Shown here: piece by piece, positions 10,188 to 47,132 of the stretch
How the letters are laid out: each line of letters begins with the position of its first letter
Position numbering within the stretch: the first letter of the stretch is position 1
Assembly: GCF_004102725.1 (NCBI RefSeq)
Contig: NZ_LHQS01000002.1
Span: forward strand, 859,984-923,983
DNA: 64,000 nt
DNA from: Methanoculleus taiwanensis
Lineage (GTDB): Archaea; Halobacteriota; Methanomicrobia; Methanomicrobiales; Methanoculleaceae
Reading direction: 5' to 3'
Program-made: the position numbers and the translations under genes
The notes under the pieces: generated by a model
Told to the model about the DNA's origin: nothing
Seen by the model: the letters and a program-made list of their open reading frames with translations, nothing else
Databases searched by the model: none

Positions 10188-10196
10188 TGTCGAACG

Positions 10197-11402
10197 TCAC
10201 CTCGTGTCCGGATATGTGAAGACGCCATGCTCGGCGACGTCGTAGTCGACGCCGTGGAACCGGTCGATATACTCCTGGTTGATCGCCTCCGGATCGAGGT
10301 CTGCGAACCGGTCAGGATAGAACCACTTCGCGATCGTCGCAAGAGCCGCCGGGTACTGGAGACCGTAGGCGTAGCGGTATGAGACAATATACACCTGGTT
10401 GTTCTTCGCCGCCGGGGTGAAGGTGAGGATCTGCTGACCGGTGATGTCGCTATGGTGATCGGCAAGCGCTGTCGGGTCGTCGGTTTCGTAACCGCCTGCA
10501 TAGCACAGTCCGAGGATCGCGTCCGGGTTCTGCTGCGCTATCCACTCGGTGTTGACGACGCCGGTCTTTGCCGCGACGGTATCGGCGGCTACATTGACCC
10601 CGCCGGCGTCGGTGCAGTGGGCATGCATGTACTGCCCTTCCGAGGCGGTCCGCCGGTCCGCCCCGCCGGAAGCACCGACATCGATGAAGACCTTCAGCCG
10701 CTCGTCTTCGGGGATCGCCGCCGCCCGCTGCTTGATATCGTCGACGTAGCGGTCGTGCCAGGCGACGTACTCGGCAGCCTGCTCCTGGCAGTCGAGGAGA
10801 TACCCGATCTTCAGGATCTCGTCCCGAAGGTAGGAGGGCTCGAGGTAGTCCATCCTGACGACCGTGACCGAGGAAGGCATCTTATCGACGAAGAAGTCGT
10901 CACCCGGGCCGAGGGTGACGTAGGTGATGATAGCGTCGGGATTGCATTCGTAGATCTTTTCAATGTCGGGGAAATTCGGGCCGCCGCCCCCGATGTCGAT
11001 CTTCTCGAGGGCGTAGGGGTTGATCACCGCCGCTCTGACACCCGAGTTGGCGACCCCGATCACCTTGTCTTCCTGATGGAGCGGGGTTACCCAGTGGCTG
11101 TTGTAGGCGACGATCCGGTTCAGCGGCCTGACGATGGTGATCTCCTTCCCGGTGGTATCCGTGATCCGGCGGGGATACTCGGGGAAGTTGTGGCTCGCGT
11201 CTGCAAGATCAGCGCGGCTGAAGTGGTCGCCCCGGCCGCCGCAGTACTCCGCATCCATAAAGGAGATGATCTCCTCCGCGAGGACGTCCCCGGCGACGTC
11301 ATGGATCTCCTGTGGCGTCGTGGGAACCGCCGTAGCGGCGGCCGGCGCGATCAGAAGGGCCAGGAGGATCGCGAGGGCGGCGGCGTATCCGGTGGCTTTC
11401 AT
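10197..11402 (-). CDS. Secreted substrate-binding protein, metal-chelate/corrinoid family
   Basis: The 401-residue product starts with a signal peptide (MKATGYAAALAILLALLIAPAAATA) and has a helical insert before a class III (BtuF/FhuD-like) binding domain: TDTTGKEITIVRPLNRIVAYN opens the first lobe and NPDAIITYVTLG and NPDAILGLCYAGG mark the two lobe strands. AGGAGG stands eight bases before the ATG at 11402, which overlaps the stop of the upstream gene as ATGA; this decides the start over the GTG at 11411. There is no lipobox and no C-terminal sorting tail, so it may be retained by the PGF-CTERM protein encoded just ahead of it. Confidence 0.82.
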   Translation of the reverse strand: MKATGYAAALAILLALLIAPAAATAVPTTPQEIHDVAGDVLAEEIISFMDAEYCGGRGDHFSRADLADASHNFPEYPRRITDTTGKEITIVRPLNRIVAYNSHWVTPLHQEDKVIGVANSGVRAAVINPYALEKIDIGGGGPNFPDIEKIYECNPDAIITYVTLGPGDDFFVDKMPSSVTVVRMDYLEPSYLRDEILKIGYLLDCQEQAAEYVAWHDRYVDDIKQRAAAIPEDERLKVFIDVGASGGADRRTASEGQYMHAHCTDAGGVNVAADTVAAKTGVVNTEWIAQQNPDAILGLCYAGGYETDDPTALADHHSDITGQQILTFTPAAKNNQVYIVSYRYAYGLQYPAALATIAKWFYPDRFADLDPEAINQEYIDRFHGVDYDVAEHGVFTYPDTR

Positions 11403-30284: not shown

Positions 30285-30512
30285 CCGGAACAAAAACCGG
30301 CATCCCTATCATCCCGCTCCCCGATCTCTTCCGTGAAGAGCATGGATCTCGCTGAATACCGGAGGATCAATACCATCATCGAGCGCGACAGCGCCGACGC
30401 GACCTACAAGTACGCCCATTCTCCGGGGCGTCATCGAGATCTGCCAGCAGTCCTCGCACCTCCGGGAGGACGACGGCGATGCGGTCTGGTTCCCCCTCGG
30501 GCTGACCTCATG
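30285..30512 (+). pseudogene. Truncated duplicate of the HNH nuclease gene 5' end
   Basis: From the ATG at 30342 this reads MDLAEYRRINTIIERDSADA, identical to the first residues of the intact gene that starts at 31685. DNA similarity begins about 57 bases before the ATG in both copies and runs to about 30512. A frameshift at TACGCCC-ATTCTCC breaks the frame after ATYKYA, and the similarity ends at codon 55 or so. The two copies flank the hicBA pair, giving about 1.34 kb between repeats. Confidence 0.8.
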
Positions 30513-31626: not shown

Positions 31627-31849
31627 CTGCCGAACGAAAACCGGCATCCATATCATCCCATTTCTCAATCTCTTCCTGAAGAGCATGGATCTCGCTGAAT
31701 ACCGGAGGATCAACACCATCATCGAGCGCGACAGCGCCGACGCGACCTACAAGTACGCCCTCCTCCGGGGCGTCATCGAGATCTGCCAGCAGTCCTCGCA
31801 CCTCCGGGAGGATGACGGCGATACGGTCTGGTTTCCCCTCGGGCTGCTC
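31627..31849 (+). repeat. Second arm of HNH-gene direct repeat
   Basis: This segment matches 30285-30512 with few mismatches, including about 57 bases upstream of the start codon (AAAACCGGCATCC is shared). It spans the first 55 codons of the intact HNH gene. Confidence 0.75.
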
Positions 31850-32848
31850 GTCGAGAAGTGGCTGCTCTACTACTACCCGATCTTCGCGGCAGCGAGGTTC
31901 ATCCCGCAGAAGAACGGGGAGACGCCGGATCAGGATGCGGGGAAGGTTGTTTCATTCCGGAAGCACTTCATGCCGATCATTGTCTATTACAAAGAACGGG
32001 GTGGCATGTCGGTCTTCTACAATGACTATATTCGCAGTTCTATCCCGGCCGAGATCCAGCCGGCGTTCATAAGTCTGGTGAAGGAGATCCGAAAGACCAT
32101 CACCCAGATGCCGATGAATCACCTCGGGTATTCGCAGTCGAAAAGGCCTTACTCAGTCTTCGACTATACCAGGCCGCTGCCTCGGCTCCCGAACGATAGT
32201 CCGGTCGACCGACCATACCTGATCGAGCACGCCGGCCGGTTCTCCCTCTCACGGGATCTCTGCACGATCTTCGAGTACTTCGGGAGTTTCATCTCGGGGG
32301 AAGAGTGCCTGCTGAAGAAGTGGGCTGCATTTACCGCAGCGGCGGATAAGACACGCACCGTCACTGAGGAGTGCATGCTCTCCCTGCTCACGGCGATGCC
32401 GACGACCGAACGGGCGGTTGCGGATGCTCGCAGCATTTACCGGTCAGTCTTTGAGGAGGAGGGGTCGCTGACCTGTGTCTGGTCGGGGAAGGCCATTTCC
32501 TCACCGGACGCGATGCATATCGACCACGTCCTCCCCTTTTCGGTCTGGAAGAACAACGATCTGTGGAACCTCCTCCCCACCCTCGCGTCGGTTAACGCCA
32601 AAAAGCGTGATCGCATTCCCGACCGTTCACGCTTGGAATCCCGCCGGGAGTGCATCATCGAATACTGGGATCTGCTCCATGATCGTTCTCCTCACCAGTT
32701 TGAGAAAGAGATCTCGGTTTCGCTCTTGGGTCCATATGCTTCATGGACTGACTGGCAGGATCAGGCGTTTGAACGGATGATGCATAAGTGCGCCTACCTG
32801 ATCGATATCAGAGGTTACGAAGCATGGTACAAAACACGGGCATGCTGA
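31685..32848 (+). CDS. HNH endonuclease domain protein
   Basis: The 387-residue product has a long N-terminal region (about residues 1-270) of no known family and a C-terminal HNH domain: MHIDHVLPFSVWKNNDLWN followed by LLPTLASVNAKKRDRIP. The His-Asn-His metal site is complete (IDH, N of NDLWN, and N of SVNAKK). Such large HNH proteins are often parts of defence or mobile elements. A truncated twin lies 1.3 kb upstream. The downstream HIT gene overlaps its end by about 25 bases. Confidence 0.8.
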   Translation: MDLAEYRRINTIIERDSADATYKYALLRGVIEICQQSSHLREDDGDTVWFPLGLLVEKWLLYYYPIFAAARFIPQKNGETPDQDAGKVVSFRKHFMPIIVYYKERGGMSVFYNDYIRSSIPAEIQPAFISLVKEIRKTITQMPMNHLGYSQSKRPYSVFDYTRPLPRLPNDSPVDRPYLIEHAGRFSLSRDLCTIFEYFGSFISGEECLLKKWAAFTAAADKTRTVTEECMLSLLTAMPTTERAVADARSIYRSVFEEEGSLTCVWSGKAISSPDAMHIDHVLPFSVWKNNDLWNLLPTLASVNAKKRDRIPDRSRLESRRECIIEYWDLLHDRSPHQFEKEISVSLLGPYASWTDWQDQAFERMMHKCAYLIDIRGYEAWYKTRAC

Positions 32849-33382: not shown

Positions 33383-34537
33383 ATGAGGCAGAAAGAAACC
33401 CTGCGCTACGACCAGACGCTCTTCCGCGACCGCGAGGTCTTCGAGTTCACGTTTGTCCCCGACCAGCTCAACCACCGCGACGCCCAGATCCGCGAACTCG
33501 CCCTTCTCGCCCGGCCGGCCGTCCGGGGCGGCAGCCCGAGGAGCGCTATCCTCCGCGGTCCGCCCGGCACCGGCAAGACCACCACTGTCCACCGGCTCTT
33601 CGCCGAGATCGAGGAGGCGACGCAGAGGATCGTCCCGGTCTATGTCAACTGCCAGCAGCACCGGACGCCGTTCGCCGTCTTTGCGTGCATCTACGAAAAA
33701 CTCGTCGGCTACGCTCCCCCGTCGGCCGGCCGGCACCTCGACGACGTCGTCGGCAGCATCACGAAACGGCTCGGCGACCGAAACGCCGCGCTCCTCGTCT
33801 GCCTGGACGACGCCAACTACCTGCACGAGGCCAGGCACTTAAACGACCTCCTCTACCGGCTCCTCCGGCTCTACGAATCGTGGGACGTCCGGAAGGCCGG
33901 CGTCTTCGCGGTCTTAAGTGACCTCTCCCTGAACCTCGCCGCCGAGGTCGACGCACAGGTCCGGTCGGTCTTCCACCCGACGGAGGTCTTCTTCCAGCCG
34001 TACGCAAAGCCGGAGATCCGGGAGATCCTGGAGGGCCGGATCCGGCAGGGGCTCTACCCGAACGTGGTGTCGCAGGCGAACACTGCCCTCATCGCGGAGA
34101 TCGCCGCACAGGAGCAGGACGTCCGGGTCGGGATCGACCTCGTCCGGACGGCGGCCGAGCGTGCGGAGAGCGACGGGCGCCGGACGGTCACCAGACAGGA
34201 CGTGATGGCCGCCTCCCGGTCGGTCATCACGCCGACCCTGCAGAAGCGGGCCGCTGACCTGAAGGAGGGCGAGCGTGCCCTGCTCTCCCGCATCGCAGAG
34301 ATGGCACGGGATACCGGCGCGGACATGACCTCGGGTGCGGTCTACGAGGCGGTGCAGGGGTACGCCGTAAGCAGCGAGACGACCTACCGGACACGGTTAA
34401 AGCGGCTCGAGGAGGCGGGGCTCATCGACCTGCCGCTCCGCACCGACCGCGGGCGAACCCGGGAGGTTCTGCTCCGCTTTACCCCCGAGCAGGTGCTCGC
34501 CGTCTGTGAACCGCGGGGGAAAACCGGCGCGGCATAG
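33383..34537 (+). CDS. cdc6: Orc1/Cdc6-type replication initiator
   Basis: The 384-residue product is an Orc1/Cdc6 protein: Walker A GPPGTGKTT near residue 60, Walker B LLVCLDDANYL (Asp where Glu is usual in DE), sensor I FAVLSDLSLN, and a C-terminal winged helix with AVSSETTYRTRLKRLEEAG and GLIDLPLRTDRGRTREVLL. It should bind origin DNA and load a helicase. A TATA box (TTTATATG, 33351-33358) lies about 29 bp before ATG 33383, giving a leaderless mRNA; the frame open from 33269 is not used. A primase-helicase gene follows, so it may serve this local replicon and not the main chromosome origin. Confidence 0.87.
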   Translation: MRQKETLRYDQTLFRDREVFEFTFVPDQLNHRDAQIRELALLARPAVRGGSPRSAILRGPPGTGKTTTVHRLFAEIEEATQRIVPVYVNCQQHRTPFAVFACIYEKLVGYAPPSAGRHLDDVVGSITKRLGDRNAALLVCLDDANYLHEARHLNDLLYRLLRLYESWDVRKAGVFAVLSDLSLNLAAEVDAQVRSVFHPTEVFFQPYAKPEIREILEGRIRQGLYPNVVSQANTALIAEIAAQEQDVRVGIDLVRTAAERAESDGRRTVTRQDVMAASRSVITPTLQKRAADLKEGERALLSRIAEMARDTGADMTSGAVYEAVQGYAVSSETTYRTRLKRLEEAGLIDLPLRTDRGRTREVLLRFTPEQVLAVCEPRGKTGAA

Positions 34538-34596
34538 TGCCTCTCTCCGGCGGGGAATAGCCGTTCCGCCCCTTCTCCGGCCATTTCACCCTTTTC

Positions 34597-34618
34597 CGGT
34601 TAAGTAACGGTTAAGTAA
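34597..34618. repeat. Tandem 11-bp repeat CGGTTAAGTAA x2
   Basis: Two exact, adjacent copies of CGGTTAAGTAA lie 60 bp after the cdc6 stop, followed by C-rich strings. Direct repeats beside an Orc1/Cdc6 gene may be origin boxes or an operator for the downstream operon. A TATA-like TTTTTAAG follows at about 34653-34660. Confidence 0.6.
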
Positions 34619-34687
34619 CCCCTATTTTCACCCGCACCATTCTCCCCACACCTTTTTAAGCCGTGTACCCGCACGCTCAACCAAGCG

Positions 34688-35122
34688 GTGCATGCAGAAT
34701 GGCTCTTCCCCTCCGGGATTGCCGGTGCACCGCGAAATGCAGCAGCGAGGCTACGCATGAAACAGAAATCACGACCCATACCCCGGGACGAGACTGCAGC
34801 CCCCGGAGAGCGGCGGGGCTCCTCTGTCCCGGCCGGATCGACGAGAGAACGCAAAAGAATCTGCGACGGCAGCCAGGCACAACCAATTGTTTCCAGCACT
34901 CGGATGCACCGGACCGCCAATGGTACTCGGCACTCCAACGATATAAGCGTGTCCGCCCCGGGAGATGCACCGCGGAAGGTGCCGCTCTACCTGATCGCCG
35001 GGGTCGTCGCGGCCGAGGTCGCCCGGCACAAGCGGGCACTCCGGGAGATCCACGTCGTCGGCGCCGCCGGCCACTACTACGCGGTCACCACCGTCGTTGC
35101 CGGAGGGGATACCGATGCCTGA
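34688..35122 (+). CDS. Small protein of unknown function, replicon operon gene 1
   Basis: The frame codes for up to 144 residues from a GTG at 34688, which lies about 30 bp after a TATA-like box; ATG 34757 and GTG 34949 are alternatives. The last 50 residues (KVPLYLIAGVVAAEVARHKR and IHVVGAAGHYYAVTTVVAGG) look folded, while the first half is polar and low in conserved character. No family is recognised. It overlaps the next gene by eight bases and is the first gene of the primase operon. Confidence 0.45.
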   Translation: MHAEWLFPSGIAGAPRNAAARLRMKQKSRPIPRDETAAPGERRGSSVPAGSTRERKRICDGSQAQPIVSSTRMHRTANGTRHSNDISVSAPGDAPRKVPLYLIAGVVAAEVARHKRALREIHVVGAAGHYYAVTTVVAGGDTDA

Positions 35123-35453
35123 GCCGGGAACGCTCGCCTACGGCAGCGGCGGCACCCTCCACGTCGCGGTCGATGCCGAACACTACCGGATCGAACCGGA
35201 GGACGCGAAACACCTGCTCTTCTCCGGGCGGGTGGTGCCGATCCAGCAGGACTGCGTCGTCCGCGACGGCGGGATGCCGATGGGCCAAACGACGATCGAA
35301 GGCCATGCCGCGGTGAACTGCACCGGCAAGGCCGTGGTGCTCCACACCCGCGCCGGCTCGTTCATCATCCCGCTCGTCAGCTTCCAGCGGGTCGCCCGGG
35401 GGGAGGCGGCGAGCGCCCCCCTCTTCCCCCTCATCCCGGGGGTGACGGGGTGA
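35115..35453 (+). CDS. Small protein of unknown function, replicon operon gene 2
   Basis: The 112-residue product starts MPEPGTLAYGSGGTLHVAVD; GGAGGGG is eight bases upstream. It is rich in beta-type sequence with no motif I can assign. It overlaps the previous gene and, by four bases (GTGA), the primase-helicase gene, so it is co-translated with it and may be a replication accessory. Confidence 0.55.
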   Translation: MPEPGTLAYGSGGTLHVAVDAEHYRIEPEDAKHLLFSGRVVPIQQDCVVRDGGMPMGQTTIEGHAAVNCTGKAVVLHTRAGSFIIPLVSFQRVARGEAASAPLFPLIPGVTG

Positions 35454-38311
35454 GCGATCCGATCCGCCGTGCGGCGGAGGTGATCGCCCCGGACGGTGTG
35501 GTGGAGGTGCGGGCACTCGCCGAGAGCGCCGTTCACTCCGGCTACTTCGACGACCGCGCCGAACTCGCCGCCCGGGCGGAGGTGCTCGACGCCGATCCGG
35601 CGGTTGGCGGGATCTACGTCACCCTCAATCCCGTGAACGGGGCGCTCCTCGCCCGGCGGGCGAACCGGATCAAGCTGCGGCTCTCGAGGAAGGACGCGAC
35701 GACGGCCGACGCCGATATCGTGAGACGCCGGTGGCTGCCGGTCGATATCGACCCGGTGCGGCCGAGCGGGGTCTCATCGACGGACGCAGAGCACGACCTC
35801 GCGCTCGCCACCGCCGAGCAGATCGCCGCCTGGCTCAGCGAGCAGGGGTTCCCCGACCCAATAAAGGCCGACTCGGGGAACGGCGCCCACCTGCTCTACC
35901 GGATCGACCTTGCGAACGACGAGGCGGCGACCGGGCTCGTGAAGGGCTGCCTCGCGACCCTCGACGCCCTCTTCTCGAACGAAGTGGTCACCGTCGATAC
36001 CGCGAACTACAACGCCGCCCGGATCTGGAAGCTCTACGGCACCGCATCACGGAAGGGCGATTCCACGCCAGAGCGGCCGCACCGGCGGGCGAGGCTGCTC
36101 GCGGTTCCCGACGGGATCGCAGTGGTTCCGGCGGAACGGCTACGGCACCTCGCCGGCCTGCTCCCGGTGGATGAACCGCCGGCACCGAAGAGGGGCACCG
36201 GCATCGACCTCGCCGCCTGGCTCGCAGGCCACAGGATCGCCGTCCGGTCCGCAAAACCCTACCGGGGCGGGACGCTCTACACCCTCGAGGACTGCCCGTT
36301 CTCGGCGGCGCACAGGGACGGGGCGTTTGCCATCCAGTTTGCGAGCGGTGCCATCTTCGCCGGCTGCCACCACACGAGCTGCGGCGGCGGGACGCAGCGC
36401 TGGCCGGAGCTCCGGGCACGCTACGAGCAGCGGGAGCAGAAACGGGAGAAGAGGGAGCAGGAACAGGGGAAGAAGAACAACTCCCCCCATCCCCCACCAG
36501 AGAATGAGCACCACCACCGGGCAATGGAGATCCTGAAAGAGGGCGATCCGCTTGCGTTCCTGCTCGCGACCTTCAACAAGAGCCACGTCGGCGACCGGAT
36601 CGTGGCGGAGTGCCTGGCGATGTCGGTCGCCTCGCAGTCGGTGGCGAACACGAATGGCCTGCACGTCGCGATCTCGGGGAACTCCGGCAAGGGCAAGAGC
36701 CACGCCTGTTCGACGATGCTCGCCCTCATCCCCGAGGCCTACAAAATGACCGGCACCGTCTCGAACAAAGCGCTCTACTACGCAGACGACCTCCGGCCCG
36801 GGACGGTGATCCTCTTCGACGACACCACGCTCTCCGACGACCTGCAGGAGGTCCTGAAGTCCGCGACCTCCTCGTTCCACGAGCCGATCGAGCACCGGAC
36901 GGTCACGGCCGACCGGCAGCTCCGGGTCTGCAGCATCCCCGAGCGGTGCGTCTGGTGGCTCGCCAAGGTCGAGAACCCGGGCGACGACCAGGTGATGAAC
37001 CGGATGCTCACGGTCTGGATCGACGACTCGGCCGAGCAGGACCGGGCGGTGCTCGAGCACCTCAAGCGGATTGAGGCGGGCGAACATACCAATGGAGATG
37101 ATCCGGACGTCCTGACCGCCCGGGCGCTCTGGTCGATCGTGAAGCAGCAGCGGATCTCCGTCCGGATCCCCTTCGCCCGGCGGATCCAGTTCTCGAACCC
37201 GGCGAACCGCCGCAATCCCGCGATGCTCTTCGACCTGATCAAGTGCCACGCGGCGCTGCGGTTCCTGCAGCGTTCCCCGAAGGAGATCGGCAGCGTCCTC
37301 CATATCGAGGCAACCCGCCAGGACTTCGACGCGGCCGCCCGGCTCTACGGCGCGATCAACCGGGAGGGCGGCGGGCAGGAGTCGAAGATGACCCGGAACG
37401 AAGCGGCGGCACTCCAGACGATCGCCCGGATGGGGTGGGAGACGTTCACGGTCCGGATGCTGCAGCAGGTCACCGGGCTGTCGTACCACCAGGTCAGGCG
37501 GATCTTGCAGGGCTACTCGGCGCGGGGGATGACCTACTGCGGCCTCCTCGAGAAGTGCCCGGCCATCAGCGTGGTGGATGCGACGGTGATCGACGAGAGT
37601 TCGGGGACGACCGTCCGCCGGCACGAGCTCCACTTCCAGTTCGATATCGAGCGCTACCGGGAGTGGATGGCGGAGCTCGCGGTCTGGCTGGAGGATGAGG
37701 ATGCAGACCCCGGGGAGGAGGGCTCCCCGCCGCCTCCGGATGGGTGTTGCAACGATGGTTGCAAACAGGAGTGCAAGGGGGTGTGCAAAGGGGAGTGCAA
37801 AGAGCTCGAGGGTGCAGATTCTCGGCATTATGGCGATAATTTCGAGAACGGGGGGATATTGGGAGAGATTTATCGCGACGATGAGAGGTCGTTTGCAACA
37901 CTTTCCGGATCACGCAGTTCCCCCTGGTTGACTCCACCGGAAGAGCACCCTGATCGCCTGCACGACCGGAGTGAACCGTGTGCTTTCGGATCTGTTGCAA
38001 ACGGAAAACTCGAAAATCGTGATTCGTCGGCGAATCAAGAATCCCTTGGCGCAGTGGAGAGTTCACAGACGAAAAGTGTTTGCACACCCCTTTGCAACAC
38101 CACGTACAACCGTGGTGCAACACCCGTCCGACCGCTGCCCGGCCTGCTCGACCACTGCACGTTCAAGCGGGTGTCCGTCGACCTCGGGCGGTGCACGATC
38201 TGCGACACCGCAAAAGCGGCCTACCACTCACGCGAGGCACGGGCGAGTATCTGCCAGAGATGTTATACCCGGCTGGTGCGGGAGGGGAACGCGAGGGAGG
38301 GGGTGCGGTGA
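35450..38311 (+). CDS. Primase-helicase fusion (AEP-like primase, SF3-like ATPase, winged helix, zinc ribbon)
   Basis: The 953-residue product has an archaeo-eukaryotic primase-like N-terminus: PVDIDPVRPSGVSSTDAEHD carries the acidic metal site, then KADSGNGAHLLYRIDL with the HxY-type residues and RIWKLYGTASRKGDSTPERP. A Cys/His region (CPFSAAHRDGAFAI, CHHTSCGGG) occupies about residues 282-320. The ATPase has Walker A SGNSGKGKSH near residue 409 and Walker B VILFDDTTL near 457. A winged-helix region (TRNEAAALQTIARMG, about 660-740) follows, then a Cys-rich repeat and a zinc ribbon (CTICDTAKAAYH, CQRCYTRLVREG). GTG start overlaps the upstream gene. Such proteins replicate plasmids and viruses. 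Confidence 0.82.
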   Translation: MSDPIRRAAEVIAPDGVVEVRALAESAVHSGYFDDRAELAARAEVLDADPAVGGIYVTLNPVNGALLARRANRIKLRLSRKDATTADADIVRRRWLPVDIDPVRPSGVSSTDAEHDLALATAEQIAAWLSEQGFPDPIKADSGNGAHLLYRIDLANDEAATGLVKGCLATLDALFSNEVVTVDTANYNAARIWKLYGTASRKGDSTPERPHRRARLLAVPDGIAVVPAERLRHLAGLLPVDEPPAPKRGTGIDLAAWLAGHRIAVRSAKPYRGGTLYTLEDCPFSAAHRDGAFAIQFASGAIFAGCHHTSCGGGTQRWPELRARYEQREQKREKREQEQGKKNNSPHPPPENEHHHRAMEILKEGDPLAFLLATFNKSHVGDRIVAECLAMSVASQSVANTNGLHVAISGNSGKGKSHACSTMLALIPEAYKMTGTVSNKALYYADDLRPGTVILFDDTTLSDDLQEVLKSATSSFHEPIEHRTVTADRQLRVCSIPERCVWWLAKVENPGDDQVMNRMLTVWIDDSAEQDRAVLEHLKRIEAGEHTNGDDPDVLTARALWSIVKQQRISVRIPFARRIQFSNPANRRNPAMLFDLIKCHAALRFLQRSPKEIGSVLHIEATRQDFDAAARLYGAINREGGGQESKMTRNEAAALQTIARMGWETFTVRMLQQVTGLSYHQVRRILQGYSARGMTYCGLLEKCPAISVVDATVIDESSGTTVRRHELHFQFDIERYREWMAELAVWLEDEDADPGEEGSPPPPDGCCNDGCKQECKGVCKGECKELEGADSRHYGDNFENGGILGEIYRDDERSFATLSGSRSSPWLTPPEEHPDRLHDRSEPCAFGSVANGKLENRDSSANQESLGAVESSQTKSVCTPLCNTTYNRGATPVRPLPGLLDHCTFKRVSVDLGRCTICDTAKAAYHSREARASICQRCYTRLVREGNAREGVR
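37747..37800. repeat. Five TGCAA repeats at 12-bp spacing inside the primase gene
   Basis: TGCAA begins at 37748, 37760, 37772, 37784 and 37796, exactly 12 bp apart. The flanks differ, so conservation is of the core and the spacing. In frame it gives Cys every four residues. Single TGCAA copies also lie at 37894 and 37996. Confidence 0.8.
37962..38311 (+). repeat. 3' tail of primase gene, first copy of a 0.35-kb direct repeat
   Basis: This segment matches 41026-41394 along its length, including GTTGCAAAC, the TGCAA array and the zinc ribbon codons, ending at the same stop codon (GAGGGGGTGCGGTGA). Confidence 0.8.
38081..38120. repeat. Second TGCAA array in the primase gene
   Basis: TGCAC at 38081, TGCAA at 38093, TACAA at 38105 and TGCAA at 38116 give spacings of 12, 12 and 11 bp. 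The last three also form an imperfect inverted repeat TTGCAACACCAC / CGTGGTGCAA. Confidence 0.75.
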
Positions 38312-38338
38312 TCCCCGTCGATCCCCTGCAGGCCGGCG

Positions 38339-38587
38339 GTGGTGCTCGGGATGGTTGGAGCGGTGCTGGTGGCGTCGCGGTCGCCGGGCATCCGGCGGGC
38401 AGGGTTTGCGGCTTGGGTCGTGGGGAATCTGCTCTGGTTACTGCATGGGATCCTGACCGCCGACCCGTATCTGAGTATTCTCTTCGGGTTTTACGGGGTT
38501 ACGGCGTTCTGGGGATTGAAGAACTGCGTTGCATTGGGAACGCCTTGTGACCGGGCTCAACCAGCGTCGCCCGGTGCAAACGGTTAA
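38339..38587 (+). CDS. Small membrane protein with three helices
   Basis: The 82-residue frame has three hydrophobic segments with small-residue motifs (GMVGAVLVASRSPGIRRAGF, AAWVVGNLLWLLHGILTADP, ILFGFYGVTAFWGLKNC). This resembles small SemiSWEET-like or PnuC-like membrane proteins seen on phages and plasmids, but I cannot assign a family. Start may be GTG 38339, 38342 or ATG 38351; no good ribosome site is seen. Confidence 0.5.
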   Translation: MVLGMVGAVLVASRSPGIRRAGFAAWVVGNLLWLLHGILTADPYLSILFGFYGVTAFWGLKNCVALGTPCDRAQPASPGANG

Positions 38588-38770
38588 CACCGATGCGTCT
38601 CAAATTGAATTTAAACACCGGTAGCGGCAAAAATTGCCGGATCCGCAGAACACAACGTCATAGTATTTCCACACCCGGGAACGTACTCAGAAGGATAGCA
38701 AAGATAGAGAGAGGGAAGACGTGGCAGGCGAAAAGATCGGAATCCTCCGGCCCATTCGGGAGCAGGCGCG

Positions 38771-40273
38771 ATGACCCCCATTCGCATCTTCGTCAGCAGC
38801 GTGCAGAAGGAGTTCGCTGAGGAGCGGCGGGTGCTATTCGATTACATCAGGAGCGACCCTCTGCTGCGTCGTTTTTACAATGTATTCCTCTTCGAAGACC
38901 TGCCGGCTTCCGGGCGCCGGCCGGATGAGACCTATCTGGCAGAGGTAGACCGCTGTGGCGTCTACCTTTGTCTGCTTGGTAACGAGTACGGCCGTGCGGA
39001 TACCGACGGTCGCTCGCCCACCGAACGGGAGTTTGATCGCGCCACTGCCGGAGGTAAGGAGCGCCTGGTCTTCGTTAAAGGCAATGACGACTCAGTGCGC
39101 GATCCGAGGGTGCTTGCTCTTCTCCGCAATGTTGACAGCCAGCTCATCCGCCGTCGTTTCGGCAGCGTCCCGGAGTTGACTGTGGAGGTTTATGCCAGCC
39201 TTGTCGAACACCTGGACCGCACCGGCGCACTGCGAACCCGCCCATTTGATGCCTCCGCATGTGCCGATGCTACGCTCGATGCTATCTCGCAGGAGAAGGT
39301 CGGGGAGTTTCTTTCCCGTGCTCAGCAAAGTCGAGGGTATGCCCTCAGCCCCAATACCCCGGTGCGCAAAGCGCTGGCGCACCTTAACCTGCTTGATGGG
39401 AGTCTCCCCAACAACGCGGCTGTGCTCCTATTCGGTAAACAGCCTCAGCGTTTCCTCGCCAGCTCCGAGGTCAAGTGCCTTCACTTCCACGGAACCGTTG
39501 TGGGCAAACCCATTCCCTCCTACCAGATTTACAAGGGCACTGTCTTTGAACTGGTCGATCAGTCGCTTGACTTCGTCCTCTCCAAGATTGCCCGTTCTAT
39601 CGGCACCCGAGCCGAGGGGCCTACGGCCCCGGCGACATACGAGGTCCCTCCAGAAGCTGTGGGCGAGGCTATCGTCAATGCTGTTGCGCACCGCGACTAT
39701 GCTTCAAATGCCTCGGTTCAGGTCATGCTCTTTTCCGACCGATTGGAGGTGTGGAATCCCGGTCAACTGCCGCCGTCCCTTTCGCCCGAGGCGCTCCGTG
39801 TCCCGCATCCCTCTATCCCGCGCAACCCTCTCATTGCAGAACCGCTCTTCCTGACTCGTTATATTGATAAAGCCGGCACCGGAACCCTTGATATGATCGA
39901 GCAGTGTATCCAGGCCGGCCTGCCGCCGCCGGAATTCCGGCAGAATGGCGAGCAGTTCGTCCAGGTTCTATGGCGCCCCGGGCGAGACCGGGTAATACGT
40001 GCTAAAACAGGGGACCAGGTGGGGACCAAGTTGGGACTAAGCGGGGACCAAGTCGAAGTGCTGCGCGCCTGTATGGCAGAGACACCCATCTCTGAACTTA
40101 TGGATATTGCAGGGAGGACGAACCGCACCAAATTCAGGAACGCCATACTGAAGCCACTGATGCAGGCGGGGTTGATCGAGATGACCATCCCGGACAGGCC
40201 CCGGAGCGGCAACCAGAAGTATCGGGTCACTGAGAGGGGGCGTGCCCTGCTTGCCGGGAGGGATACGCCGTGA
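38771..40273 (+). CDS. DUF4062 protein with RecG-like/HATPase_c_4 domains
   Basis: The 500-residue product starts with RIFVSSVQKEFAEERRVLF, a DUF4062 domain (about residues 1-120) with a TIR-like look. Then come a divalent-type AlbA_2/schlafen-like stretch (KALAHLNLL, about 195-290) and the histidine-kinase-type ATP site of RecG-like transcription proteins (EAIVNAVAHRDYASNASVQV, DRLEVWNPGQLPPSL; about 310-385) and a winged helix (RNAILKPLMQAGLIEM). DUF4062 is often fused to defence NTPases. Codon use is looser and GC lower than its neighbours, which supports transfer. A decayed copy of the ATP domain follows directly. Confidence 0.75.
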   Translation: MTPIRIFVSSVQKEFAEERRVLFDYIRSDPLLRRFYNVFLFEDLPASGRRPDETYLAEVDRCGVYLCLLGNEYGRADTDGRSPTEREFDRATAGGKERLVFVKGNDDSVRDPRVLALLRNVDSQLIRRRFGSVPELTVEVYASLVEHLDRTGALRTRPFDASACADATLDAISQEKVGEFLSRAQQSRGYALSPNTPVRKALAHLNLLDGSLPNNAAVLLFGKQPQRFLASSEVKCLHFHGTVVGKPIPSYQIYKGTVFELVDQSLDFVLSKIARSIGTRAEGPTAPATYEVPPEAVGEAIVNAVAHRDYASNASVQVMLFSDRLEVWNPGQLPPSLSPEALRVPHPSIPRNPLIAEPLFLTRYIDKAGTGTLDMIEQCIQAGLPPPEFRQNGEQFVQVLWRPGRDRVIRAKTGDQVGTKLGLSGDQVEVLRACMAETPISELMDIAGRTNRTKFRNAILKPLMQAGLIEMTIPDRPRSGNQKYRVTERGRALLAGRDTP

Positions 40274-40309
40274 TCACCCGCGAGGCCGGCCCGCAGGCGC
40301 CGGTGCGCT

Positions 40310-40784
40310 TGCGAGATCCCAAAGGAGGTGGTGGCGGAGGCGGTCGTCAACGCCGTCGCCCACCGCGACTACACGAGCAACGGCAGCGTCCAGGTGATGC
40401 TCTTTGCGGACCGGCTGGAGGTCTGGAACCCGGGCAGACTCCCGCCGTCCCTGACGCTCGAGAAACTGCGGCAGGCGCACGGGTCGGTGCCGGGCTTCGG
40501 CTCCCGGTCAGGGGCCGCAGCTAGGGTCGCGGCCGGAATCACTGGAAGCGAGAGTCCTCCTGCTCCTCGAGGGCGAGCCGAAGTCCAAAGCAGAGCTCTC
40601 CAGGGAACTCGGACAGAAAGAGATCTCGGGCCAGCAGAGCAAGGTCGTCCGCCAGCTCCTGGCTGATCAGCTGATCGAGTATACCATCCCCGAAAAACCG
40701 AGTAGCCGGTTCCAGAAGTACCGCCTCACCGGGAAAGGCCGGGCAACGCTCGCGAAACCCGGTTCTGAGGGAGACATGCCGTGA
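40310..40784 (+). pseudogene. Decayed copy of a RecG-like ATP-binding gene
   Basis: The first part reads EVVAEAVVNAVAHRDYTSNG and DRLEVWNPGRLPPSL, like residues 295-355 of the gene just upstream. The C-terminal part in another frame reads LLADQLIEYTIPEKPSSRFQ and KYRLTGKGRATLAKPG. A deletion and a frameshift near 40480-40560 separate the two. The remnant differs from the intact gene in wording, so it comes from a diverged paralogue. Confidence 0.75.
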
Positions 40785-40926
40785 CGGAGTGGGTTTCGTC
40801 TGACGGGTGTGGATAGTATCACGGATTTTCGGCAGAACAGGGGGTTGATCCAGGTCGGAAAACCGGGCAGATGCCCTCCTGGCGTGGGTGAATGAGAGAT
40901 GAATGAATAAGAAGAGCTGATCGAAG

Positions 40927-41394
40927 ATGAGTGATGAGCGCCGGGCGGGGCTTGAACGGCCGCACTACATCACAAATGTCCTGAAAGCCGGCGGCAGAGC
41001 AGTGCACCGGAAGATCGCCCTGACTCGCATGCACGGCCGGAGCGAACGGTGTGTTTTCGGATCTGTTGCAAACGAAAAAATCGAAAATGGCAATTCATCA
41101 GGAAATGCTGTAACGCCCGGCGTAACAAAGAGTTCGCAGACCGAAAGTGTTTGCACTCCTGTTTGCACACCCCTTTGCAACACCATGTACAACAGTGTTG
41201 CAACGCCCGTCAGGCCGCTGCCCGGGCCGCTCGACCACCGGACGTTCAAGCGGGTGTCCGTCGACCTCGGGCGGTGCACAATCTGCGACACCGGGAAGGC
41301 GGCCTACCACTCACGCGAGGCGCGGGCGAGTATCTGCCAGGGGTGCTATGCCCGGCTGGTGCGGGAGGGGAACGCAAGGGAGGGGGTGCGGTGA
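40927..41394 (+). CDS. Zinc-ribbon protein, duplicate of the primase tail
   Basis: The 155-residue product starts at ATG 40927 with about 30 residues of unrelated sequence, then repeats the primase tail: CVFGSVANEKIENGN, a Cys-x3-Cys run (SVCTPVCTPLCN), and the ribbon CTICDTGKAAYH with CQGCYARLVREG. It ends at the same stop as the primase gene copy. It may be expressed as a free DNA-binding subunit, or be a by-product of the duplication. The array has one 12-bp unit more than the other copy. Confidence 0.55.
   Translation: MSDERRAGLERPHYITNVLKAGGRAVHRKIALTRMHGRSERCVFGSVANEKIENGNSSGNAVTPGVTKSSQTESVCTPVCTPLCNTMYNSVATPVRPLPGPLDHRTFKRVSVDLGRCTICDTGKAAYHSREARASICQGCYARLVREGNAREGVR
41152..41204. 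repeat. Third TGCAA array, in the duplicated tail
   Basis: TGCAC at 41152 and 41164, TGCAA at 41176, TACAA at 41188 and TGCAA at 41199 are spaced 12, 12, 12 and 11 bp. This is the same pattern as 38081-38120 with one additional unit. Confidence 0.75.
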
Positions 41395-41512
41395 TACATA
41401 CATCACTGGGAAATTGCCAATGTAAACTCAATGGCACCGGAAAGGGCAGATTTCGCGGAGCGTTTTTCAGAATCGGCACGGCCGGAAGAAGTGATAGTGC
41501 GGAGCATCGGGC

Positions 41513-42162
41513 ATGAGCAGCGCTAACATCCCCCTGACGGCTATCCCGCTTTTCTCTCCGCTCTGAAGGTGCGGGTTCGCGAAGCTCAGGTCCGGGCTGC
41601 CCTCTCGGTGAACCGGGAACTGATCCAGCTCTACTGGCAGATTGGGCGGGAGATCGTACAGCGGCAGCAGGAAGAGGGCTGGGGAGCGAAGGTGATCGAC
41701 CGGCTCTCAGCGGATCTGCGGCGGGAGTTTCCGGATATAATGGGCTTCTCTCCCCGGGACCTCAAGTACATGAGCGCATTCGCACGGGCATATCCGGACG
41801 AGGCAATTGTGCAGGAGGTGCTTGCACACATTACCTGGTACCACACGGTCACGCTGCTCGACAAGGTGAAGGATCCGGTGCAGCGGGAGTGGTACATCCG
41901 CAAAACCATCGCGAACGGCTGGTCGCGGAACGTGCTCGTGCACCAGATCGAGAGCGGCCTCTACGAACGCGAAGGACGGGCAGTCACCACCTTTTCGGCG
42001 ACGCTGCCGCCGGAGCAGTCCGATCTCGCCATCCAGACGATAAAAGATCCGTATGTCCCTGACTTTCTCGAGATGGGAGAGGCGGTGCGGGAGCGGGGTC
42101 TGATCGACCACATCCGCGAGTTTCTCCTGGATCTCGGGGTGGGGCAGAACCTTCGGGGTTAA
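41513..42162 (+). pseudogene. Frameshifted and truncated DUF1016 (YhcG-like) gene
   Basis: The N-terminal DUF1016 helical domain is well preserved: RAALSVNRELIQLYWQIGRE, EEGWGAKVIDRLSADLRREF, SPRDLKYMSAFA and GWSRNVLVHQIESGLYER. The protein stops at VGQNLRG, where full-length members continue into a nuclease domain of about 150 residues with PD-(D/E)XK catalytic residues; that domain is missing. The start MSSANIP (ATG 41513) is out of frame by one base with the rest; adding one C to the five-C run at 41530-41534 would join them. It is probably inactive. Confidence 0.7.
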
Positions 42163-43209: not shown

Positions 43210-45615
43210 ATGATATGCAGACAGTTGCTCCCGCTCATGATACTTCTTGCACTGGCGGCGATGGTGCCGGTGGCGCTCGCCGAAGAACCGGAGGTTAGGG
43301 ATATACCATACCCTGACGGCTTTCCGCCGCTTGAAGATCTCCTGGTGCCGCTGCCGGACGGAACGGAGGAGCAGACGGTGCAGGACGCTGCATCCGGGGA
43401 GGCTTACGTCTTTGTGGACTGGTGGGGATCCGATATCCGCGGCAGCGGAAAACTCTGCTACCCGAGGGACGTGGCCGTCGATACCGATGGGAATGTCTAT
43501 GTCATGGACGCAATGAACTATCGGATCCAGAAGTTTGGTTCAAACGGAGACTTCCTCTTGAAATGGGGCGGTCGCGGCAGCTGCGATGGAAGGTTCTCCG
43601 CCATTGTGGGTGACATCGCGACCGATGCGGCGGGGAATGTCTACGTCGCAGAGAATGGCCGGGTTCAGAAGTTTGATTCAAATGGCACGTTCCTGATGAA
43701 ATGGTGGTGTCTAGGTTCTGGCGAAGGGCAGTTCGTCACTGCATATGCCATTGCCGTCGATGCAGACGGGAATGTCTATGTCACGGATAGTAACCGCGTT
43801 CAAAAGTTCGCTGCTGACGGCACATTCCTTCTGGCATGGGGGAGTGAAGGGTCCGGTGAAGGAGAGTTCAACTGCCCGTACGGGATTGCAGTCGATAGCC
43901 GGGGAAATGTATATGTCGCAGACAGCTCGAACCGGAGAGTCCAGAAATTCGACTCAAACGGCACGTTTATGATGGCATGGGGTGTTTACGGGCGCGGTGA
44001 CGGGGAGTTCCTCTGGCCTCAGGGTATCGATGTCGACTTGGAAGGGAACGTCTATGTATCAGACTACGATCGGATACTGAAGTTCGACGCGAACGGCACA
44101 TCCCTCTGGACTTCGGGGAGTGAAGGAACCGGGGATGGACAGTTCCGCTATCCGGAGGATCTCGCGGTGGCTGCCGATGGCACTGTCTACGTTGCGGATA
44201 CCTACAACTACCGGATCCAGAAGGTAAGCCCGGAAGGCGCGTTTCTCGCCAAGTGGGGGAGCGATCTCTTCAGTGATGGGCGTTTTCTCAGGCCACGCGG
44301 CCTTGTGATCGATGGAGTGGGGAATGTCTATGTTGCAGACTATGGGAACAGCAGGATCCAGAAATTCGGATTAAACGGCACGTTTTTACTAAAATGGGGA
44401 AGTCTTGGGTATTACAGTCAGCAATTTCAGGGTCCCTCCGACGTCGCCTGTGACGCGGTGGGGAACGTCTATGTTTCGGACTCGGGAAACGGCAGGATCC
44501 AGAAGTTCAGCCCAAACGGGGGCTATATGGGGAAGTGCGGGAGCTGGGGAACAACCGGGGATGGTAGGTTTTTTAATCCCGCCGGTGTTGCACTCGACGC
44601 AGAGGGGAATATCTATGTCACGGACGAGTATCTGCATCGGGTTCAGAAGTTTAGCTCGACTGGTGCTTTCCTGATGAAATGGGGAAGCGAAGGGTCCGGC
44701 GATGGGATGTTCCAATCCCCGAAAGGCATCACCATCGATTCGCACGATACTGTCTATGTCTCGGATCACTCCCGGGTTCAGAAGTTTGACGCGAACGGCA
44801 CCTTTCTGGATACGTGGGGAGAGTACGGGTCTGAGGCCGGACAGTTCTACGGCACCTCGGCCGTCGCACTCGACGCGCTTGGGAACGTCTTTGTTGTCGA
44901 TACGAAGAACTGCAGGATCCAGAAATTCAGTCCGAATGGCACGCTCCTCTCTCGATGGGGGACGTATGGATTTGGTCTCGGCCAGTTTTATTACCCTGAA
45001 GGAATAGCCGTCGATGCAGACGGGAATGTCTATGTCGCGGACACAGAGAACTGCAGGATCCAGATATTCGCCCCCCCGGTTACCGCCGGGATCGCCATCA
45101 CCGACGCCGCGGCATTGCCTGCCCTCATCCCGGCCGACATCGACGGCACACCCGAACCGGGTGAAACCACGACACTCTCCGTGACGGCGACCGGGGCGAA
45201 CGTCGCGTCGGTGACAGTCGATTTCTCAGCGATCGGCGGCTCCCCGGCGGCAGTGATGAGTGATACCGGCGATGGCATCTGGACGGTAAGTACTGCGGCA
45301 ATCGTCCCCTCGCCGTTTGCAGACGGCGCCTACCAGCCGGTCCTCCTGCCTGTGAACGCCACCAGCGCAGACGGGATCAGCAATACGTCGGTCTCGATCC
45401 CGCTCACCGTCGTGAAGAACGGGGATGCGAACCAGGACAACCGGGTTACGCTCTACGACGCGGTCTACACCGCCCGGCACGTCCTCGGGATCGAGGGCTA
45501 CCCGATGACCGAGAGCGTCGGGATGGTTGCGGGCGGCGATGCCCTCTCGCTCGCTGATGCGGCCTACCTCGCGAGGCACGTCCTCGGGATGCCGGGGTAT
45601 GAGGTTCTGCACTGA
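43210..45615 (+). CDS. Secreted NHL-repeat protein with dockerin module
   Basis: The 801-residue product has a signal peptide (LLPLMILLALAAMVPVALA), then 12 NHL repeats of about 43-46 residues with the pattern GNVYVADT.N.RIQKF..NGTFL..WGS. Twelve repeats fit two six-bladed propellers, or one larger ring. A beta-sandwich-like region (about 620-735) follows, then a C-terminal dockerin: GDANQDNRVTLYDAVYTARH and GGDALSLADAAYLARHVLG form two calcium-loop helices. It should be cell-surface and may bind cohesin partners. Start ATG 43210 fits the signal peptide. Confidence 0.8.
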   Translation: MICRQLLPLMILLALAAMVPVALAEEPEVRDIPYPDGFPPLEDLLVPLPDGTEEQTVQDAASGEAYVFVDWWGSDIRGSGKLCYPRDVAVDTDGNVYVMDAMNYRIQKFGSNGDFLLKWGGRGSCDGRFSAIVGDIATDAAGNVYVAENGRVQKFDSNGTFLMKWWCLGSGEGQFVTAYAIAVDADGNVYVTDSNRVQKFAADGTFLLAWGSEGSGEGEFNCPYGIAVDSRGNVYVADSSNRRVQKFDSNGTFMMAWGVYGRGDGEFLWPQGIDVDLEGNVYVSDYDRILKFDANGTSLWTSGSEGTGDGQFRYPEDLAVAADGTVYVADTYNYRIQKVSPEGAFLAKWGSDLFSDGRFLRPRGLVIDGVGNVYVADYGNSRIQKFGLNGTFLLKWGSLGYYSQQFQGPSDVACDAVGNVYVSDSGNGRIQKFSPNGGYMGKCGSWGTTGDGRFFNPAGVALDAEGNIYVTDEYLHRVQKFSSTGAFLMKWGSEGSGDGMFQSPKGITIDSHDTVYVSDHSRVQKFDANGTFLDTWGEYGSEAGQFYGTSAVALDALGNVFVVDTKNCRIQKFSPNGTLLSRWGTYGFGLGQFYYPEGIAVDADGNVYVADTENCRIQIFAPPVTAGIAITDAAALPALIPADIDGTPEPGETTTLSVTATGANVASVTVDFSAIGGSPAAVMSDTGDGIWTVSTAAIVPSPFADGAYQPVLLPVNATSADGISNTSVSIPLTVVKNGDANQDNRVTLYDAVYTARHVLGIEGYPMTESVGMVAGGDALSLADAAYLARHVLGMPGYEVLH
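45110..45615 (+). repeat. Dockerin module, copy 1 of a 0.5-kb direct repeat
   Basis: This segment matches 46627-47132 base for base over most of its length (offset 1517 bp), including the final stop codon. Differences are scattered single bases. Confidence 0.85.
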
Positions 45616-45764
45616 AAAGCAGAATCCCTTTTCCATCGTTTTAATCCTGAAAATGCCCTTAAATCAAAATAGCCTTGTTTTATTGGTCATTATCTGAATC
45701 GGGTTTCCCTAATCAAATGAAATCTCGAAAAACTCTTTTACCGGAGAGAAGATATCCCTTTCCT

Positions 45765-47132
45765 ATGATAACCGCCCACCGTATTCTCCTGACGCTGACA
45801 CTCTGCCTGTTCCTCTGCGTCCTCGCCGAAGGCGCATCGGTCACCGTGACCGCATCCGGCACCGGCGTCTACTGGATCGGTGATGGAATCCTGCTTGGCG
45901 GCACCAACACCGGCAACACGACCACCTACCTCTTCCTGACCGGTCCTGACCTCCCGGAGAACGGCGTCAAACTCGACGACGTCACCGTGCCCGTAGCCGA
46001 CGGGCAGGGCAGTACCTTCGTCCAGGCTGGCGTCGGGCCCGATAACACCTGGAGGTACACGTGGGATACCTCCGCCGTGCGCCAGGTCGCGGGCGTGGAT
46101 CACAGCACGTACACGATCTACGCCGTTTCAGCCCCGCGGGACAGGGCTCATGTCTCCAAAGCGGCGTTCGGCACCACATCGGTCGTTGTGAAGAGAGACT
46201 TTGTCACCGTGACGCTGAGCGCGGACTCCGTTGCCAGGGGCGACAGCCTGACGATCTCCGGTACGTTGCATGATTTCCCTGACAATATTTCAGTCTGGCT
46301 CTTCGCCGAGGGGTATCGCAGTTTCGCACGGCCTGCCGGCGGTGCGGGCGACGGCTCCTTCGCAAACGTCGTTACCGGCAGCGAGACGCTGAATATGACG
46401 GCCGGGTGGTGTTCTGTTATAATCCAGCACCCGGGAAAGGACGGGGAGCCGGATGTCGTCCCCATTAACGAAACCTGGATCCGTGACGCTGCAGGGAGCG
46501 AGATCGATCTTGGTGTGCTGTCACGTGAAGTCGCAGTAGGCACCCTCATTCAGGCCATCCGTACGTCACAGTCCGACGCGTATGCCTGGTCATACTTCCG
46601 CGTAGTGGAGCCCTTGACCGATCCCCGGGCGACGCCCGCCCTCATCCCGACCGACACCGATGGCGTCCCGGGACCGGGCGAGACCGCCACGCTCTCGGTG
46701 ACAGCTACCGGGGCGAATGTCGTTTCGGTGACGGCCGCTCTCTCAGCGATCGGCGGCTCCGCGGCGGCAGTGATGAGTGATACCGGCGACGGCATCTGGA
46801 CGGTAAGTACTGCGGCAATCGTCCCCTCGCCGTTCGTGGACGGTGCCTACCAGCCGGTCCTCCTGCCTGTGAAAGCCACCGGCGCAGACGGGATCAGCAA
46901 TACGTCGGTCTCCATCCCGCTCACGGTCGTGAAGAACGGGGATGCGAACCAGGACAACCGGGTTACGCTTTACGACGCGGTCTACACCGCCCGGCACGTC
47001 CTCGGGATCGAGAGCTACCCGATGACCGAGAGCGTCGGGATGGTTGCGGGCGGCGATGCCCTCTCGCTCGCCGATGCGGCCTACCTCGCCCGCCACGTCC
47101 TCGGGATTCCCGGCTACGAAGTTTTGCACTGA
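45765..47132 (+). CDS. Secreted DUF3821-like protein with dockerin module
   Basis: The 455-residue product has a signal peptide (ILLTLTLCLFLCVLAEG), then a beta-rich domain (GVYWIGDGILLGGTNTGNTT) like archaeal DUF3821 proteins, and a second beta domain (VTLSADSVARGDSLTISGTL, about residues 145-270). The last 170 residues are nearly the same as those of the NHL protein: a beta-sandwich and a dockerin. Start ATG 45765 is chosen by signal peptide; GGAGAG lies some 15 bases upstream. The frame open from 45675 lies in AT-rich promoter DNA. Confidence 0.78.
   Translation: MITAHRILLTLTLCLFLCVLAEGASVTVTASGTGVYWIGDGILLGGTNTGNTTTYLFLTGPDLPENGVKLDDVTVPVADGQGSTFVQAGVGPDNTWRYTWDTSAVRQVAGVDHSTYTIYAVSAPRDRAHVSKAAFGTTSVVVKRDFVTVTLSADSVARGDSLTISGTLHDFPDNISVWLFAEGYRSFARPAGGAGDGSFANVVTGSETLNMTAGWCSVIIQHPGKDGEPDVVPINETWIRDAAGSEIDLGVLSREVAVGTLIQAIRTSQSDAYAWSYFRVVEPLTDPRATPALIPTDTDGVPGPGETATLSVTATGANVVSVTAALSAIGGSAAAVMSDTGDGIWTVSTAAIVPSPFVDGAYQPVLLPVKATGADGISNTSVSIPLTVVKNGDANQDNRVTLYDAVYTARHVLGIESYPMTESVGMVAGGDALSLADAAYLARHVLGIPGYEVLH
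46627..47132 (+). repeat. Dockerin module, copy 2 of a 0.5-kb direct repeat
   Basis: Second arm of the 506-bp direct repeat shared with the NHL protein gene. The similarity stops abruptly at its left end within the coding region. Confidence 0.85.

Follow-up and report, generated by a model that had tools for sequence, protein, structure and literature searches.

The 64,000-nucleotide stretch of Methanoculleus taiwanensis analysed here (the window; contig NZ_LHQS01000002.1, positions 859,984 to 923,983 of the forward strand) encodes at 38771-40273 a 500-residue protein that joins a DUF4062 domain to an ATP-binding HATPase_c_4 domain and a C-terminal winged helix. We consider this fusion to be probably a single-chain abortive-infection guard, with an effector that hydrolyses nicotinamide adenine dinucleotide (NAD+), i.e., a NADase, and an exchangeable sensor, in which DUF4062 has replaced the Schlafen RNase of a known bacterial defence scaffold. 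Several lines of evidence carry this reading. First, the N-terminal domain has a predicted TIR-like fold and keeps the glutamate aligned with the catalytic one of an antiphage effector. Second, the rest of the protein resembles the scaffold of Schlafen-type defence proteins. Third, many relatives are encoded in defence operons. Fourth, a two-gene version pairs DUF4062 with the same scaffold. Fifth, the C-terminal tips were exchanged between near-identical cores.

Architecture of the fusion protein

The protein passes the Pfam gathering score of DUF4062 (PF13271) at residues 5-91, with an expectation value (E) of 1.4e-19 and 70.5 bits against a cut-off of 24.7. It also matches HATPase_c_4 at residues 314-397 (E 9.4e-21, 74.1 bits) and, above the cut-off, the Fic-like_C winged helix at residues 426-487 (E 2.6e-15). 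No other Pfam domain was matched at E up to 0.1, the helicase domains of RecG included: the label "RecG-like", used in an earlier reading of the DNA letters (the sequence-only reading), is just the Pfam name of the ATP-binding fold. The fusion proposed in that reading is itself confirmed by Pfam, by the AlphaFold2 model and by the pattern of selection. The model, built with 70 aligned sequences, has a mean predicted local distance difference test score (pLDDT) of 87.6 and a predicted template modelling score of 0.63, with residues 407-420 below a pLDDT of 50. The ratio of nonsynonymous to synonymous substitution rates (dN/dS) over the whole gene is 0.15 against a 96% identical homologue and 0.14-0.17 against five homologues; the gene is therefore real and under purifying selection. 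Its codon use, described earlier as looser, is so to a degree: among the 39 window genes of at least 150 residues it is the ninth most deviant, and its GC content at third codon positions (0.673) is the fourth-lowest. The features of the gene are the following:

38771..40273, + strand: fusion protein gene, DUF4062 – linker – HATPase_c_4 – winged helix; open frame of 500 residues starting with ATG (Pfam, AlphaFold2, dN/dS)
38771..39226, + strand: predicted TIR-like DUF4062 domain, residues 1-152, Pfam core 5-91 (Pfam, fold matches, KpSwz profile match)
39029..39031, + strand: codon of E87, the predicted catalytic glutamate, aligned with E97 of KpSwz (invariance, alignment)
39227..39709, + strand: connecting region, residues 153-313, the part of the scaffold preceding the ATP-binding fold (3lmm match, invariant residues)
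39710..39961, + strand: HATPase_c_4, a GHKL-type minimal histidine-kinase ATP domain, residues 314-397 (Pfam, invariant residues)
39986..40030, + strand: low-confidence hinge, residues 406-420 (pLDDT)
40046..40231, + strand: C-terminal winged helix Fic-like_C, residues 426-487, the exchangeable tip (Pfam, tail comparison)

In the AlphaFold2 model, residues 1-152 resemble TIR and nucleotide N-hydrolase folds alike (Z 12-14), the matches including the TIR domains of MAL (13.7), SPARTA (13.6) and SARM1 (13.4) as well as DNPH1 (13.6), and we take the domain to have a predicted TIR-like fold. The nearest solved DUF4062 protein is KpSwz, or Swarozyc (PDB 10wc), matched at E 0.008 by the single window sequence and at E 4.4e-9 over positions 3-176 by a profile of 70 fused proteins; it is not among the 50 Foldseek matches listed, from a fold library that runs to April 2026. 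The 10wc chain carries the substitution E97A, and the profile alignment places its alanine at E87 of the window protein. This residue is invariant in all 70 fused proteins, which are nearest relatives, and its equivalent is invariant in the 12 aligned stand-alone DUF4062 proteins of the two-gene operons described below. Judged by its residues, the window protein has the TIR-like active site that the sequence-only reading had in view.

In a 2026 preprint (PMC13174449), DUF4062 proteins were shown to hydrolyse NAD+, the domain being the TIR-like NADase and antiphage effector of KpSwz. This Klebsiella pneumoniae protein protects Escherichia coli via abortive infection in a manner dependent on E97, and its auxiliary domain, of the helix-turn-helix (HTH) or winged kind, binds the phage portal; TEP1 is also NADase-active (PMC13174449). 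By analogy, the fusion subfamily probably has NADase activity. KpSwz and the window protein have in common the DUF4062/TIR-like N-terminus, with the catalytic glutamate position kept in both, and a C-terminal HTH or winged part, and many relatives of the fusion have defence-gene neighbours. They differ in the HATPase_c_4 core, to which KpSwz gave no match, and in the auxiliary domain of KpSwz, which is unmatched because the profile alignment to 10wc ends at chain residue 182.

Past DUF4062, residues 157-404 of the model find their best solved match in DIP2311 (3lmm, Z 24.5), a protein listed as uncharacterised; the N-terminal domain lies outside this alignment. In residues 153-405 and the winged helix the window protein is like the Schlafen scaffold, and Pfam places its HATPase_c_4 before a winged helix, the order of the Schlafen-type defence proteins. 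SLFN_AlbA_2 has no match in the window protein up to E 0.1, and DUF4062 occupies the place of AlbA_2. GHKL-like positions are kept: across the 70 fused proteins, E299 and N303 in the connecting region and N329-P330-G331 and G371 in HATPase_c_4 are invariant, E299-x3-N303 being N-box-like (the box names are our own). H307 and D309 of the connecting region are invariant as well.

Proteins made of a Schlafen-family RNase, a minimal histidine kinase and a winged helix-turn-helix (wHTH) are reported from 1017 or more taxa, at loci of bacteriophage exclusion (BREX) and related systems (PMC12839542). The same paper proposes nuclease effectors, Schlafen among them, as a back-up for when the virus blocks the first line of defence. 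The window protein is like these proteins in its HATPase and wHTH scaffold and in the operon context of its family, and an archaeal Schlafen-bearing version is paired with a separate DUF4062 gene; it differs in having DUF4062 instead of SLFN_AlbA_2. The HATPase region also matches Aga_SIR2-PNTD models of PADLOC (7e-14), whose names we read as standing for SIR2-bearing Argonaute-linked proteins. Since these models match, and since PMC6299218 reports Argonaute-linked proteins (og_40) in which SIR2 is joined to Schlafen-type modules, the HATPase-wHTH chassis may carry three effectors: Schlafen, SIR2 and DUF4062. The PADLOC match suggests a further domain related to NAD, SIR2 instead of DUF4062, on a similar scaffold.

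Relatives, their neighbours and the exchange of tips

A scan of 84,980 genomes gave 352 stretches matching the search patterns, and for 320 of them kinship to the first 250 residues was confirmed. Of these, the 80 best were kept; 69 gave proteins of 440-620 residues with both end domains, and the other 11 were dropped. Genes were called with a simple caller of our own, which makes starts and short genes approximate. Among 40 archaeal stretches also fetched, L011, L065, L066, L086 and L089 were excluded from the fused set because the contig was short, genes were cut or broken, or no fusion was found. Relatives occur in archaea, Chlorobiota, Planctomycetota, Verrucomicrobiota, Nitrospirota, Thermodesulfobacteriota, Poribacteria and other groups, the nearest ones in an unclassified Methanomicrobiales metagenome-assembled genome, Methanoculleus sediminis and Methanoculleus sp. 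Afa-1. In the tree of 70 proteins archaea and bacteria are intermixed: 32 changes of phylum label are required against a minimum of 16, a broad mixing to be read with the caution that bins may hold foreign contigs, and two archaeal rows join two Syntrophaceae rows with support 100/100.

Only 2 of 159 matching plasmid records cover at least 80% of the protein. Both are from Legionella, with the fusion beside partition and replication genes, and the copy on the L. hackeliae plasmid is annotated as two pieces. A viral home was rejected: in viral contigs none of 54 pattern stretches was confirmed, and none of 22 matching phage records covers 80% of the protein.

The neighbours of the fusion were surveyed in 86 fused loci (the window and L067 were left out, and the duplicates L092-L094 and L120 dropped). 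Co-directional genes lie within 80 bp in 38 of 81 cases upstream and in 45 of 82 downstream, i.e., 83 neighbours in 56 loci. Prokaryotic genes being often tightly packed, we discounted spacing alone and counted only the identity of the neighbours. The recurrent ones are defence genes, not metabolic regulators: the 83 include, by Pfam, 16 N6_Mtase, 9 HsdM_N, 9 Methylase_S, 6 HSDR_N, 11 ResIII, 7 SNF2-rel_dom, 4 PLDc_2 and 2 DUF6079, none of which is among the 25 families listed, of 132, for 100 random archaeal proteins. Searches with tblastn found matches to type I restriction-modification (R-M) seeds within 4 kb in 36 of 88 fused loci (34 of 85 once the seed loci L053, L054 and L056 are removed) and in none of 20 random archaeal regions; the seeds came from these three loci and from L076, and a match may represent another N6 methylase or helicase. 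In the archaeal whole-genome set the count is 8 of 23 loci, two being seed loci. BREX seeds added three further fused loci and helicase/DUF1156-type seeds 11 further, numbers that are partly circular, as the seeds were partly drawn from the same loci. The 5-kb archaeal neighbourhoods yielded 213 PADLOC models against 25 in the control (100 of 272 dereplicated neighbours scanned in the cases, 100 of 212 in the controls). Individual loci illustrate the arrangement. L054, whose fusion is 92% identical to that of the window, has the order HsdM – DUF1016 – HsdS – DUF4209 protein – fusion – orphan tip – HsdR; L056 (80% identical fusion) has an HsdM gene before the fusion and an HsdM-like gene after it; and L053 has an HsdM gene behind its copy, more than 4 kb away. 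Many relatives of the fusion thus sit in type I R-M, BREX-like and helicase defence operons.

In archaeal genomes of the same phylum as the window, a stand-alone DUF4062 gene (about 212 residues) lies directly upstream of a HATPase-wHTH gene. A partner of this kind is present at all 13 split loci, six of which had been picked for both matches close together and seven by the DUF4062 match alone, and the two genes overlap by 4 nucleotides at 12 of the 13. The four partners scanned all carry SLFN_AlbA_2, HATPase_c_4 and Fic-like_C. DUF4062 is frameshifted at L082, the partner at L084 is short and non-overlapping, and the pair at L076 is placed between HsdM and HsdS. This two-gene arrangement speaks for a functional connection of DUF4062 with the scaffold. 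An IEFK-like motif near the Schlafen start, which we take to matter in that part of the protein, is intact in some of the partners at L072-L084 and changed in others (IEFL, VEFI, IEVL); because of these changes, the Schlafen part may be inactive in some of them.

The C-terminal tails of the fused proteins were replaced between near-identical cores, as judged from alignments. With 23 aligned proteins divided into 25-residue blocks, agreement with the window residue averages 0.48-0.86 per block as far as residue 400, apart from 0.36 at 176-200, and 0.26-0.39 beyond it. Tails fall into different Pfam helix families. Of the pairs formed by 88 proteins, 215 share 75% identity or more in the core; their tails are less than 40% identical in 109 pairs, 40-60% in 53 and higher in 53, the pairs not being independent. 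Examples are L109/L116 (core 98%, tail 40%) and L060/L063 (core 95%, tail 25%). Against five homologues the tails have dN/dS of only 0.23-0.39, compared with 0.08-0.21 for the rest of the protein, which makes point mutation alone an unlikely explanation. The junction often carries 4-residue repeats (TREE, VTEQ, QPES, GKTS), found in 35 of 88 tails, in none of the 88 cores, in none of 20 rounds of shuffled tails and not in the window protein itself. In the three examples viewed at the DNA level (L069, L061, L057), these are 12-nucleotide units, identical or one base different, which raises the question whether the hinge is a point of slippage or recombination. Such repeats link the ATP core to the winged helix past residue ~395 in L069, L061, L157, L166 and others, and their copy number varies among close relatives, e.g., L136/L155 (core 93%). 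As a separate observation, L132 holds at 7816-8844 a 342-residue version with DUF4062 and winged-helix matches and neither a middle nor a HATPase match, directly preceding a full-length fusion (9001-10518); it may be an internal deletion or a minimal form.

The element carrying the window copy

The sequence-only reading placed the gene inside a replicon region, and indeed an Orc1/Cdc6 gene and a primase/helicase-like gene precede it:

33383..34537, + strand: Orc1/Cdc6 of the carrier element (NCBIfam, 3e-116)
35450..38311, + strand: primase/helicase-like protein of 953 residues, named from its sequence (no Pfam family above cut-off)
37954..38312, + strand: left direct-repeat copy, the 3' end of the primase-like gene (identity to 41025-41395: D1 92%, D2 77%)
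40313..40781, + strand: frameshifted remnant of the 3' end of a paralogue of another subfamily, HATPase from residue 291 plus a QPES-type winged helix (identity to L059-L062)
41025..41395, + strand: right direct-repeat copy, a stand-alone C-terminal segment of the primase-like protein (residues 836-953, 79%)
41569..42162, + strand: DUF1016/YhcG-type protein, apparently truncated (Pfam)

The unit at 33383-41395 comprises Orc1/Cdc6, two small proteins and the 953-residue protein, and the DUF4062 module is enclosed by direct repeats, the 3' end of the primase-like gene being duplicated behind the cargo. Stretches related to the 953-residue protein occur in 43 of 61 genomes searched, often several per genome; the genome of the window has further copies that are 84% and 73% identical, the latter over residues 1-756. 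The genes behind this protein vary among the loci viewed, and stand-alone copies of its C-terminal segment are scattered in many relatives (L058:12010-12207, L059:13366-13581, L060:12370-12693). Perhaps such segments mark a cargo site. The DUF1016/YhcG-type protein has a homologue (54%) in the type I R-M operon of L054.

The remnant at 40313-40781 shares 98% identity with L061/L062 over residues 291-350, and 66% with the L059/L060 tail. By tblastn with 79 of the 88 tails (nine lacked the motif used for cutting), 5 of 81 loci (the window, L053, L054, L055 and L130) have a paralogue tail downstream, in the same orientation and no more than ~140 bp away, four of them forming one close clade, and we therefore rejected orphan 3' tips as a general rule. 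Upstream, a tail that near was found in 1 of 82 loci, from an apparently intact Schlafen-type gene (L161).

Several proposals of the sequence-only reading can be judged here. Its defence role is supported for the family by the NADase activity of DUF4062 (PMC13174449), the kept glutamate and the operons of many homologues; around the window copy itself, the seeds detected none of these operon genes within 4 kb. An anti-plasmid role has no specific support, as several copies (the window and the two Legionella ones) themselves ride replicon-type elements. A recent arrival would be in line with a tree that crosses phyla and with somewhat deviant codon use.

Two further cases of repeated sequence were seen in the window. 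Positions 30334-30504 are a truncated duplicate (94-99%) of 31677-31846, the start of an HNH-endonuclease gene (31685-32848), and lie some 1343 bp upstream of it; between the copies is a pair that we read as HicA/HicB-like. At 43210-47132 two adjoining large genes, NHL-repeat-like and dockerin-like by eye, share a near-identical C-terminal segment (GDANQDNRVTLYDAVYTARHVLGIE...).

Proposed mechanism and alternatives

We propose that the DUF4062 domain would be a TIR-like NADase kept inactive at rest and that the HATPase_c_4 core would bind ATP and serve as a dimerising switch. The C-terminal winged helix would sense an intruder, or the disturbance of an adjacent restriction or BREX complex, i.e., the loss of the partner system. 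Upon sensing, the core would rearrange, allowing the TIR-like domains to assemble; NAD+ would then be hydrolysed via E87, and growth would stop before the virus matures. Placed inside an R-M or BREX-type operon, the guard could act as a back-up if the virus blocks the first line. In this scheme the NADase activity of the subfamily, the ATP-driven switching, the ligand of the tip and the suicide of the cell are inferred.

Several observations weigh against this scheme: 1) DUF4062 need not be active, since purified NWD1, NWD2 and NPHP3 have the domain and showed no NADase activity (PMC13174449); 2) the invariance of E87 is only a mild test among proteins so closely related; 3) no R-M, BREX or helicase seed matched within 4 kb at 38 of 88 fused loci, the window included, and any such seed did so at only 1 of 13 split loci, L076, itself a seed; 4) the control regions were drawn at random from archaea, most fused loci being bacterial, and the loci are not independent; 5) no PADLOC model was found in more than 4 of the 100 proteins from the archaeal 5-kb neighbourhoods, as in the control; and 6) some copies, those of the window, L053, L059 and L062, lie behind an Orc1/primase-like element, and that of L055 beside Orc1 without the primase-like gene. 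To these is added the ambiguity of the fold, with DNPH1 and MilB ranking equal to TIR domains (Z 13.0-13.6).

Two alternatives share most of the evidence. The fusion could be a transcriptional regulator of restriction or replicon genes, whose winged helix binds DNA, whose HATPase_c_4 shifts conformation and whose DUF4062 detects NAD+, ADP-ribose or a nucleotide but leaves the pool intact. Its position within R-M operons and the ordinary regulator-family winged helices (HTH_24, HTH_11, DeoR-like) of several scanned fused members would suit such a role. We hold it to be unlikely, since the catalytic glutamate is kept more strictly than a binding site alone requires, tail replacement between near-identical cores is odd for a promoter-specific regulator, and KpSwz acts as an effector, its HTH/winged domain binding a phage portal (PMC13174449). 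Alternatively, the N-terminal domain might be an active N-glycosidase of the nucleoside deoxyribosyltransferase (NDT) or DNPH1 kind, destroying (deoxy)nucleotides rather than NAD+, with the guard otherwise as proposed. The ranking of DNPH1 and MilB points this way, and PMC13174449 notes that DUF4062 is distantly similar to TIR and NDT domains alike; NDT is absent from the matches in three sequence searches of solved structures, and we regard this variant as rather improbable. That the fusion is decaying or inert, riding on the Orc1/primase-like element and playing no part in defence in this genome today, is very doubtful: the frameshifted paralogue tail behind it, the truncated look of the DUF1016 gene and the lack of an R-M gene detected within 4 kb agree with decay, whereas the gene is intact, constrained over its whole length against all five homologues and has kept its catalytic and ATP-site residues.

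The guard reading can be extended, tentatively, to a whole family in which NADases guard restriction and BREX systems and diversify their sensors as polymorphic toxins do their tips. Such guards might combine a conserved core, often a 12-nucleotide-repeat hinge, a winged helix replaced as a cassette and, in some loci, orphan paralogue 3' ends, with Schlafen, SIR2 and DUF4062 as interchangeable effectors on one chassis. The parts and their context were already known. The DUF4062–HATPase–wHTH fusion, its split form and the tail exchange were not found in the titles and beginnings of abstracts of the DUF4062, Schlafen and HATPase literature searched, and the words HATPase and AlbA are absent from the main text of PMC13174449, a statement that does not extend to its supplementary domain Figure S1.

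If the guard reading is true, the DUF4062 NADase would be an exchangeable warhead on a chassis that otherwise bears Schlafen RNases, linking two defence families, and the DUF4062–HATPase–winged-helix architecture would be extended into archaea. The exchangeable tips would also make the trigger of restriction and BREX guards testable, the near-identical cores with different tips being ready-made pairs for mapping it.
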